Of a stretch of DNA of 64,000 nt, positions 50,506-53,931 are shown piece by piece. The stretch is from assembly GCF_021568905.1 (NCBI RefSeq), contig NZ_JAKGSB010000002.1:186001-250000 (forward strand), in the 5' to 3' direction. This stretch comes from Zavarzinia marina (GTDB taxonomy: Bacteria > Pseudomonadota > Alphaproteobacteria > Zavarziniales > Zavarziniaceae). Position numbers and translations under genes: made by a program. Under the pieces are notes generated by a model that was not told the origin of the DNA, made no database searches, and worked only from the letters and a program-made list of their open reading frames with translations. Each line of letters begins with the position of its first letter. Positions within the stretch are counted from its first letter, which is position 1.

Positions 50506-51114
50506 TCAGTTCCGCTTCGGCCCGCCGAGGGTCAGGAAGGCGGCCATTTCGGCCGGCAGCGGCGCATCCGTATCCTTGAGTCGCGAGCCCAGTTTGTCGC
50601 CGCCCAGAATGCGAGTGAGCTGGGTGCGCGCGCGGGAAACGCGGCTCTTGATGGTGCCGACGGCGCAATTGCAGATTTCCGCCGCCTCCTCGTAGGAAAC
50701 GCCGGAGGCACCGACCAGGATCAGCACTTCGCGCTGTTCCTCGGTCAGACGCCAGAAGGCGCGGCGGAAATCGTCGAATTCGAGGCCGGCTTCCTGGGTC
50801 GGGCCGGCGGCGTGCTGGTTCTCGGTCACCTCGTCCAAGGGGTCCATCTTCACCCGCGCCTTCCGCCCCTCGTTGTAGAAGAGGTTGCGCAGGATGGTGA
50901 ACATCCAGGCCTTGAAATTGGTGCCGGGCTGGAACTGATGGGCCGCCGTCAGGGCGCGCACCACCGCGTCCTGCACCAGGTCGTCCGCCCGTTCGCGATT
51001 GCCGGTCAGGAAGCGGGCGAAGGCGCGCAGATGCGGCATTACCGCGATCACCTCGGCGCGTATGTCGAACTTCACGGGCGTTTCCGCGCCGTTGCCGCCG
51101 CGCGCCTCGGTCAA
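50506..51114 (-). CDS. ecfG: EcfG-family general stress response sigma factor
   Basis: A 202-residue ECF sigma factor. Region 2 is FARFLTGNRERADDLVQDAVVRAL and FKAWMFTILRNLFYNEGRKARVK; region 4 is LTEEQREVLILVGASGVSYEEAAEICNCAVGTIKSRVSRARTQL. The start is uncertain: TTG at 51114 overlaps the nepR stop as TTGA, while GTG at 51075 gives 189 residues. It directs RNA polymerase to GGAAC...CGTT promoters of the alphaproteobacterial general stress response. It is held inactive by NepR until phosphorylated PhyR sequesters NepR. Confidence 0.94.
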   Translation of the reverse strand: MTEARGGNGAETPVKFDIRAEVIAVMPHLRAFARFLTGNRERADDLVQDAVVRALTAAHQFQPGTNFKAWMFTILRNLFYNEGRKARVKMDPLDEVTENQHAAGPTQEAGLEFDDFRRAFWRLTEEQREVLILVGASGVSYEEAAEICNCAVGTIKSRVSRARTQLTRILGGDKLGSRLKDTDAPLPAEMAAFLTLGGPKRN

Positions 51115-51305
51115 GACCGCCCCCCGCCCTTGCCCGAGTCGCCCCCCTCGCCGCCGACGTCGATCTTGTCGAGCAGGTCGAGGAGATCCTGCGGCAGGGG
51201 CTCCGCCGCGACGTCGTCGTACAACTTGCGCAGCTTGTCGTCGACCCATTGCTCGGGAACGGGCTTGCCGGCTTTCGATTTCGGGGACTTGGGCTTATCG
51301 GGCAT
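51111..51305 (-). CDS. nepR: NepR anti-sigma factor
   Basis: A 64-residue protein. The core WVDDKLRKLYDDVAAEPLPQDLLDLLDKID matches the two-helix NepR motif that binds EcfG or PhyR. Flanks are disordered: Lys/Pro/Ser-rich before it and Gly-rich after. It is the first gene of the nepR-ecfG pair and its stop overlaps the ecfG TTG. NepR blocks EcfG and is released when PhyR is phosphorylated. Confidence 0.93.
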   Translation of the reverse strand: MPDKPKSPKSKAGKPVPEQWVDDKLRKLYDDVAAEPLPQDLLDLLDKIDVGGEGGDSGKGGGRS

Positions 51306-51328
51306 GGCACTTCGAGGCTAGCGACCTT

Positions 51329-51360
51329 GGAACCAACGGGGAAGGGGCCGCATTGGTTCC
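51329..51360. promoter_or_regulatory. Divergent overlapping EcfG-type promoters between nepR and phyR
   Basis: On the minus strand GGAAC (51356-51360) is followed by 17 bp and CGTT (51335-51338), the general stress response consensus, reading into nepR. On the plus strand GGAAC (51329-51333) is followed by 17 bp and CATT (51351-51354), one mismatch, reading into phyR. The block is an inverted repeat (GGAACCAA-N16-TTGGTTCC). Confidence 0.8.
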
Positions 51361-51431
51361 CAAGCATATTTGTGGCACGGTTCGGCCGGGACGGGCCGGA
51401 GCCTTGTCGGCCGTCCGAGAGGAAAGACAAG

Positions 51432-52202
51432 ATGACCGACCTGAAGCAGGAAATCGCCCGAATCCTGCCGTTCCTGCGTCGCTATGCCCGCGCCCTGACC
51501 GGCGCCCAGGCGACGGGCGACGCCCTGATCCGCGAGGCTCTGCAGGCGCTGGCCGGCGGCGGCGCGCGCCTGGATCCGGCGCGCGACCTCAAACCCCAGC
51601 TCTATGCCCTGGTCCATGCCGCCGCCGACGGGCTTTCGACCGAGACCGCGCCCGAAGACGACAGCGGCTTCAAGGCCCGCCTCGGCGCCCTGCCGGCGGC
51701 CCCGCGCCGCGCCCTTCTCCTTTCGGTGCTGGAAGGCCTGAGCCGGGCCGAGACCGCGACCATCCTCGGCACCGATGTCGACACCGTCGGCGCCTGGCTG
51801 GCGCAAGCCCATGACGAGCTCGCCGCCCAGCCGAGCGCCCGCGTCCTGGTGATCGAGGACGAACCGATCATCGCGCTCCACATCACCGAGATCGTGCGGG
51901 ACGCCGGCCACGAGGTGATCGGCAATGCGACCCGGAAGAGCGAGGCGGTGGCGCTGGCGACCGAGCATCGGCCCGACCTGGTGCTGGCCGACATCCAGCT
52001 CGACGACGGTTCGACCGGGATCGAGGCGGCGCAGGAGATCCTGGAATCCCTGGACGTGCCGGTGGTCTTCGTCACCGCCTTTCCCGAACGCCTGCTGACG
52101 GGCGAGCGCATGGAGCCGACCTATCTGGTCGCCAAGCCGTTCGATCCCGAAACCCTGGTGGTTACCATGGCGCAAGCCCTGTTCCACCATCCGGGCCGCT
52201 GA
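51432..52202 (+). CDS. phyR: PhyR general stress response regulator
   Basis: A 256-residue response regulator with an inverted arrangement: residues about 1-125 mimic an ECF sigma factor (LPFLRRYARALTGAQATGD; LLSVLEGLSRAETATILGTD) and residues about 133-250 form the receiver (VLVIEDEPIIALH, phosphoacceptor Asp187 in VLADIQL, VTAFPE, KPFDPE). Phosphorylated PhyR binds NepR and frees EcfG. The sigma-like part lacks key DNA-contacting residues, so it is not a sigma factor. GAGGAAAGACAAG precedes the ATG. Divergent from nepR; a sensor kinase follows 19 bp later. Confidence 0.95.
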   Translation: MTDLKQEIARILPFLRRYARALTGAQATGDALIREALQALAGGGARLDPARDLKPQLYALVHAAADGLSTETAPEDDSGFKARLGALPAAPRRALLLSVLEGLSRAETATILGTDVDTVGAWLAQAHDELAAQPSARVLVIEDEPIIALHITEIVRDAGHEVIGNATRKSEAVALATEHRPDLVLADIQLDDGSTGIEAAQEILESLDVPVVFVTAFPERLLTGERMEPTYLVAKPFDPETLVVTMAQALFHHPGR

Positions 52203-52221: not shown

Positions 52222-53931
52222 GTGTCCGGCCTGCTGCGTCTCCTCGATCCCCTGCGTTCCCGCCTCATCGTCCTTATGCTGTTCGTTCTGGCGGCACCGG
52301 CGGCGGGCGGGGCCTTGGTGGCGCGCCAGGCCTATGACGAACAGACGCGCCGGGCCGAGACCCAGGTCCATCAGTTCGCCAGCCTCGCCGCCGCCCACGA
52401 ACGCGATTTCTTCCTCGACACCTGGCGCCTGCTGGTCGGCCTGACCACCGACATTTCGCTGCCCTCGGCCGGGACCCGCTGCCCGCGGGTCTTCACCGCC
52501 TTTCTCGAGATCTACCCGGAATACGGCAGCCTTGCGATGGTCGCGCCGGACGGCCGCCAGGTCTGTTCCACCGATCTGCCGCCGTCCCGCGAGCTGATCA
52601 GCTACGCCGATGCGCCGTGGTTCAAGCGCCTGACCCTGCTGCAGGACTTCACCCTGTCCGACCAGGTGGCGGCCCCCGGGGACGGCGCGCCGGCACTGGT
52701 CGCCGCCATGCCCATGATCGACGCGAAGGGGGATATCGAAGGCGTGGTCGCCGCCTGGATCAAGCTCGACCGGCTGGAGCGCGTGGCCCGCGACACCGGC
52801 CTGCCGGCGGAAGGCGTGATCTACGTCCTGGATCGTCAGGGCGAGGTGCTGACACGGCGCACCGGCGGCGTCGCCGGCGATGGCGGCCTGCCCGCGCCCG
52901 AAATCGTGACCCAGGTGGTGAACGACGAAGTGCTGGAATTCCGCGCCGACGACCGCGACGGCAACGAGCGCGCCTATTCCGTCGTCGTGCTGCAGGGCGG
53001 CGCCATCCATGTGCTGTTCGGCCTGCCCGTCGCCTCCACCTTCGGCTGGATCGACCGCGATCTGACCTCGCGCCTCGCGATGATCGGCGTGACCCTGCTG
53101 GCGGCCGCCCTCGCCGCCGCCATCGGTGGCCATTTCCTGGTCACGCGCTGGGTGCGCCGCCTGCGCGGACTTGCCGCCGAATTCACGGCGGGCCATCTGG
53201 ATCATCGGGTCAACCTGTCGGGCGCCCCCGCCGAACTGCGGGAGCTGGGCGACGGTTTCGCCACCCTGGGACGCCGCGTCGCGACCCGCGAGGCGGAGTT
53301 GAAGCGCAACATCGGCGAGAGGGATCTGCTGATCCGCGAGATCCACCACCGGGTGAAGAACAATCTCCAGACCGTGCTTTCGATGCTGTCGCTGCACCTC
53401 AGGAAGGCCGGCGCGCCGGCCGCGCGGGACGCCCTGTCGGATGTCGAGAAACGGGTGCGCGCGCTCGCCCTCGTGCAGCGCCATCTCTATCTCGACGATG
53501 CCCGCAGCCTGGTGGACGTCAGCGCCCTGCTGACCGAACTGGCCCGCAGCCTCGCGGGCGAGGCCCCCGACGTCCATCTGACCGTCGCCCTGCCGCCGCT
53601 CGCGATCGAGCAGGACCGGGCGACGCCGCTCGCCCTTCTGGTCACGGAATGGATCGGCAACGCGCTCGCCCATGCATTCGGGCCCGGGGGCGGCACGATA
53701 CGTCTCGACGGCACCGTCGCCGGCGAGACGGTCACCGTGACGGTCGCGGACGACGGCCGGGGCTTCGATCCCGACGCGGCCTCCGGCCTCGGCCTCGCCC
53801 TGGTGCCGGGGCTGGTCAAGCAGATGGACGCGGCCAGCACACTCGATACCGCGCCGGGCCGCGGCACCGCCTGGGCCGTCACCTTCCGCCTCGCCCCGCC
53901 GGCCGCCCCGCCGCTGGAGGCGGGGGCGTAG
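52222..53931 (+). CDS. HWE/HisKA_2-type sensor histidine kinase, probable PhyR kinase
   Basis: A 569-residue membrane kinase. Helices are at about residues 13-33 and 284-306, enclosing a periplasmic Cache-like sensor of about 250 residues. HAMP follows (VRRLRGLAAEFTAGHLDHRVN), then EIHHRVKNNLQTVLSMLSLHL with the phosphoacceptor His376 of the HisKA_2 class, and a divergent ATPase (EWIGNALAHAFGPGGGTIRLDG, VADDGRGFDPD, GLGLALVPGLVKQM). HisKA_2/HWE kinases are the PhyR partners in several alphaproteobacteria. The GTG start at 52222 is 19 bp after phyR. The signal is unknown; a periplasmic sensor suggests an external cue. Confidence 0.93.
   Translation: MSGLLRLLDPLRSRLIVLMLFVLAAPAAGGALVARQAYDEQTRRAETQVHQFASLAAAHERDFFLDTWRLLVGLTTDISLPSAGTRCPRVFTAFLEIYPEYGSLAMVAPDGRQVCSTDLPPSRELISYADAPWFKRLTLLQDFTLSDQVAAPGDGAPALVAAMPMIDAKGDIEGVVAAWIKLDRLERVARDTGLPAEGVIYVLDRQGEVLTRRTGGVAGDGGLPAPEIVTQVVNDEVLEFRADDRDGNERAYSVVVLQGGAIHVLFGLPVASTFGWIDRDLTSRLAMIGVTLLAAALAAAIGGHFLVTRWVRRLRGLAAEFTAGHLDHRVNLSGAPAELRELGDGFATLGRRVATREAELKRNIGERDLLIREIHHRVKNNLQTVLSMLSLHLRKAGAPAARDALSDVEKRVRALALVQRHLYLDDARSLVDVSALLTELARSLAGEAPDVHLTVALPPLAIEQDRATPLALLVTEWIGNALAHAFGPGGGTIRLDGTVAGETVTVTVADDGRGFDPDAASGLGLALVPGLVKQMDAASTLDTAPGRGTAWAVTFRLAPPAAPPLEAGA

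Follow-up and report, generated by a model that had tools for sequence, protein, structure and literature searches.

A 32-bp inverted repeat with putative interleaved, divergent EcfG-type promoters between phyR and nepR-ecfG in Zavarzinia

Results

The locus under study lies in a 64,000-nucleotide stretch of the Zavarzinia marina contig NZ_JAKGSB010000002.1 (hereafter the window), to which all coordinates refer unless another sequence is named. On the plus strand, phyR (51432-52202) encodes the anti-anti-sigma response regulator PhyR (256 aa), identified by Pfam and NCBIfam searches through PF22029, PF22233, a receiver domain and a score above the cut-off of the NCBIfam PhyR model. The minus strand carries nepR (51111-51305), encoding a 64-aa anti-sigma factor (PF18557, E 4.8e-10), and ecfG (50506-51075), assigned to an ECF sigma factor by its Sigma70_r2 and r4_2 domains and by its synteny with phyR in relatives; its start codon is likely the GTG at 51075. 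Downstream of phyR, Pfam identified a dCache-HisKA_2/HWE sensor kinase (52222-53931, plus strand). The divergence of phyR from nepR-ecfG, with an HWE/HisKA_2 kinase nearby, identifies a PhyR-NepR-EcfG locus. A search for RNA families in 51100-51600 found none.

Between the divergent genes, an inverted repeat, GGAACCAA-N16-TTGGTTCC, occupies positions 51329-51360, exactly where the original prediction had placed it and with the motifs that it had read on both strands. The plus strand of this interval reads GGAACC AACG GGGAAGGGGCCG CATT GGTTCC. Toward nepR, the minus strand presents GGAAC (51360-51356)-N17-CGTT (51338-51335), which conforms to an EcfG-type promoter defined as GGAAC, a spacer of 16-17 bp and CGTT or GGTT. 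Toward phyR, the plus strand presents GGAAC (51329-51333)-N17-CATT (51351-51354), which departs from the same definition by one mismatch in the -10 box. The four promoter elements have no bases in common, and each -10 abuts the -35 of the opposite promoter: the phyR -35 GGAACC (51329-51334) is followed by the nepR-ecfG -10 (51335-51338, minus strand), and the phyR -10 (51351-51354) by the nepR-ecfG -35 GGAACC (51355-51360, minus strand). A 12-bp core at 51339-51350 is common to both 17-bp spacers. From the -10-to-start distance of ECF promoters, transcription is predicted to start at 51360-51363 toward phyR, and a start region at 51326-51330 is likewise predicted toward nepR.

This arrangement did not arise by chance. 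The inverted repeat is unique within the window, whose shuffles give an expectation of 0.14 sites with up to 3 mismatches, and when the 126-bp intergenic region was dinucleotide-shuffled 200,000 times, both promoters appeared at the observed offset only twice. Taken alone, GGAAC-N16-18-CGTT shows no enrichment in this GC-rich genome, with 48 genome-wide matches against 46 for a reversed control. We therefore rejected genome-wide counts of this motif as proof of a regulon: strong matches lie mostly within genes, and strict-motif matches, mostly in coding sequence, do not demonstrate an EcfG regulon. The weight of the analysis thus rests on location, pairing and conservation rather than on the single motif.

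An alignment among relatives, which the original prediction had called for, covered six Zavarzinia species (G000-G005) and a genome of the sister genus (G006). GGAACC-AAC...C(A/G)TT-GGTTCC is retained in all six species, and each promoter has a 17-bp spacer; the core varies in sequence but not in length. The phyR -35 GGAACC is invariant in the six species and in the sister genus, in which the -35 toward nepR has degenerated to GAAAGC. Five species carry CATT toward phyR and CGTT toward nepR; in G002 (locus L014) the strengths are reversed, with CGTT on the phyR side and TGTT on the nepR side. Relative strength thus evolves while the genus retains both promoters. The proposal that a weaker phyR -10 biases the site toward nepR-ecfG stands for the five species, but it is reversed in G002 and does not generalize to the 38 distinct overlap loci described below. 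Among 385 sampled genomes, the strict Zavarzinia pattern had no match outside the genus.

Two further conserved blocks flank the repeat. The sequence TTTGTGGCAC (51369-51378) is invariant in all Zavarzinia species and begins 8 bp past the nepR-side -35, corresponding to roughly +9 to +18 for phyR and to around -43 to -52 for nepR; given its position relative to both predicted starts, a factor bound there could favor one direction. On the other flank, in the early nepR leader, 51317-51326 reads GCTAGCGACC, a conserved block that takes the form GCTANCGGCC in most relatives.

At a separate site, six Zavarzinia genomes retain a GGAAC-N17-YGTT promoter upstream of a glycosyltransferase gene, which suggests that the genus uses the motif. 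In G000, this site (L115:2042-2069, corresponding to G000:C9:140541-140568) forms a palindromic GGAACG-N16-CGTTCC between the glycosyltransferase gene and a divergent gene for a small Cys-containing protein, both named by eye. We rejected it as a second bidirectional promoter, as its orthologs retain the glycosyltransferase-side motif only and its symmetry is probably fortuitous; judged from these alignments, it is likely a conserved directional EcfG target toward the glycosyltransferase.

Promoter geometry was then compared over 120 phyR loci. Paired promoters were offset by 31 bp in 26 loci and by 32 bp in 14, and a few loci showed 26, 27 or 30 bp; offsets of 28-29 bp, at which CGTT would clash with GTTCC, were absent. 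Separate back-to-back promoters, with offsets of -9 to -33, were typical of Rhizobiales-type loci, unlike the Zavarzinia arrangement. Among 38 distinct overlap loci, 32 had two spacers of equal length, 16/16 or 17/17 (Fisher p 1e-5 for 16 versus 17, uncorrected for relatedness); such covariation is expected, since one indel in the common core alters both spacers. Both -10 boxes were CGTT in 17 of these loci, the phyR side was the weaker in 8 and the nepR side in 6. Where a single promoter was recognizable among the 120 loci, it stood on the nepR side in 30 cases and on the phyR side in 3, which indicates that the coupling is dispensable. As the phyR promoter is the one usually missing, these sequences suggest that nepR-ecfG autoregulation may be the less dispensable half.

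In the scan of phyR loci, Rhodobacterales showed the same interleaved geometry, as in GGAACCGAACG-N-CGTTCGGTTCC. Its near-palindromic pattern occurred in exactly one copy in 36 of 101 Rhodobacterales genomes, and a palindromic pattern in exactly one copy in 11 of the 16 phyR genomes with such geometry, control matches being zero in both searches. Forty of the 42 fetched copies from outside Zavarzinia sit between phyR and ecfG, and NepR was identified by Pfam in the 8 overlap loci checked. One of the two exceptions, L129, is a match of the class-wide scan that lies within coding sequence, away from phyR; that scan, run with the Rhodobacterales-type pattern, gave 2 matches in 372 genomes. The other, L156:1501-1533 in a Rhodobacterales genome, is a near-symmetric GGAACCCAAC...GTTTGGTTCC located not at phyR but about 100 bp upstream of a gene that appears, by eye, to encode a GntR-type regulator.

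In addition, 30 Rhodobacterales phyR loci were picked by PhyR similarity, blind to the promoter. A 31-32 bp overlap was present in 19 (18 detected by script and L183 by eye), a 26-bp overlap in 2, a nepR-side promoter only in 8 and neither promoter in 1. Recurrence inside Rhodobacterales is largely shared descent, so that these counts are not independent. In the PhyR tree, overlap loci form two sets, Zavarzinia and a Rhodobacterales-Rubrimonas group, with lineages of other layouts in between, a distribution that may reflect either convergence or intervening loss. Three Sphingomonas-type loci (L042, L046 and L008) show a related near-symmetric overlap upstream of phyR, GAAACCAA-N-TTGGTTCC (TTGGTTTCC in L042), which differs by a tighter 26-bp offset and one degenerate -35 and which the strict rule scores as nepR-side-only.

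Discussion

The locus, the motif and its divergent autoregulation are already known. In other alphaproteobacteria, the phyR and nepR-ecfG operons are both EcfG-driven, from divergent promoters of the form GAAC-N16,17-C/GGTT (PMC4814048, PMC8103513), and these systems share with the Zavarzinia locus the genes, their orientation, the sigma-factor motif and positive autoregulation. The papers describe two promoters and make no mention of one footprint. Within the open-access literature searched, we found no description of overlapping phyR/nepR promoters in one footprint, nor of their locus specificity and spread.

The nearest experimental precedent comes from E. coli, whose bidirectional promoters, like those of Salmonella, are pseudo-symmetric DNA that lets polymerase bind either way; those share a symmetric sigma-70 -10 and have starts 7-25 bp apart, with a mode of 18 (PMC12825309, PMC10268837). 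The Zavarzinia element differs in that its -10s are distinct, each -35 adjoins the -10 of the opposite strand, and the reader is likely an ECF sigma factor. It falls outside the Warman/Grainger definition of reciprocally overlapping -10s and starts 7-25 bp apart (PMC10268837), its -10s being 12 bp apart and its predicted starts about 30-37 bp apart. The geometry would nevertheless require a bidirectional promoter in the broad sense of mutually exclusive polymerase orientations: with two EcfG-type promoters in the same 32 bp there should be no room for two holoenzymes, in agreement with the original prediction that both could not be occupied at once.

Our favored reading, which we regard as probable, is that the 32-bp element is a bidirectional EcfG promoter at which a holoenzyme on one side blocks the other, so that the output of PhyR is coupled to that of NepR-EcfG. 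EcfG-RNA polymerase would bind in either orientation, one at a time, transcribing phyR rightward or nepR-ecfG leftward, and a polymerase on one promoter would cover the other, so that initiations would be partitioned. Because the same polymerase would read both sides and spacer changes affect both promoters, synthesis of PhyR and of NepR-EcfG should increase in parallel as EcfG becomes more active, and the ratio between them would depend chiefly on the two -10 boxes; when EcfG activity is high, both products would be limited by steric exclusion. We infer that each side acts as an EcfG promoter in this organism, that the two exclude each other in vivo and that setting the ratio is of benefit. 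The earlier wording needs amending on two points. "Competition for EcfG" is imprecise, as one DNA site is held in common and read both ways by the same holoenzyme, and "switch" is too strong for a site with the same sigma factor on both sides, where initiations would be partitioned with no toggle.

Both promoters could instead be real and their overlap an inherited compact layout with no regulatory consequence, firing being too rare for collisions. For five bidirectional promoters of E. coli, Warman et al. found no measurable competition as long as activity was basal, whereas raised activity brought competition and less noise (PMC12825309); as competition appeared only at raised activity, this explanation stays live, and other alphaproteobacteria use separate back-to-back EcfG promoters at the same locus. 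Three observations nonetheless make it the less likely account: Rhodobacterales keep the overlap although the core and the offsets (26, 31, 32) have turned over, loci with the overlap occupy two distinct regions of the PhyR tree, and near-consensus elements on both sides favor high occupancy under stress.

It is improbable that the nepR-ecfG promoter alone works, the phyR half being a weak or decaying remnant and phyR being driven from elsewhere. The CATT on the phyR side fits such a decay, as does the observation that, where relatives have lost one side, it is nearly always that of phyR (30 loci against 3). However, the phyR -35 is invariant in Zavarzinia, where five species share CATT as the -10 and the sixth has CGTT, the half that decayed in the sister genus is that of nepR, and CATT is a working, though weaker, -10 than CGTT in in-vitro transcription with Sphingopyxis EcfG1 and EcfG2 (PMC7083833). 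Least credible, to the point of being very improbable, is that the repeat serves a dimeric transcription factor as its operator rather than being a promoter pair. The perfect 8-bp arms and the near-perfect palindromes of many Rhodobacterales would suit an operator, but GGAACC and CGTT explain every conserved base of the arms, the distance between half-sites varies over 26-32 bp while the -35 to -10 spacing is constant at 16-17, and in other orders this locus carries both motifs without overlap.

A bidirectional EcfG promoter at this site bears on the open question of how partner-switch circuits proportion sigma, anti-sigma and anti-anti-sigma factors under positive feedback. Tentatively, and with more doubt than confidence, interleaved ECF promoters may form a widespread class, present in two separate alphaproteobacterial clades, in which a ratio-setting partition element at a single site would fix the PhyR:NepR-EcfG ratio across stress levels and, through steric exclusion, limit positive feedback as well as noise between cells. 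The notion of bidirectional promoters would thereby reach beyond the symmetric -10 of sigma-70 and take in interleaved ECF elements, and natural variants are available for comparison, with both sides at consensus, either side weaker, or separate promoters. If true, a conserved promoter that yields opposing products from one exclusive site would be a simple answer to the question of proportion, testable by point mutations.
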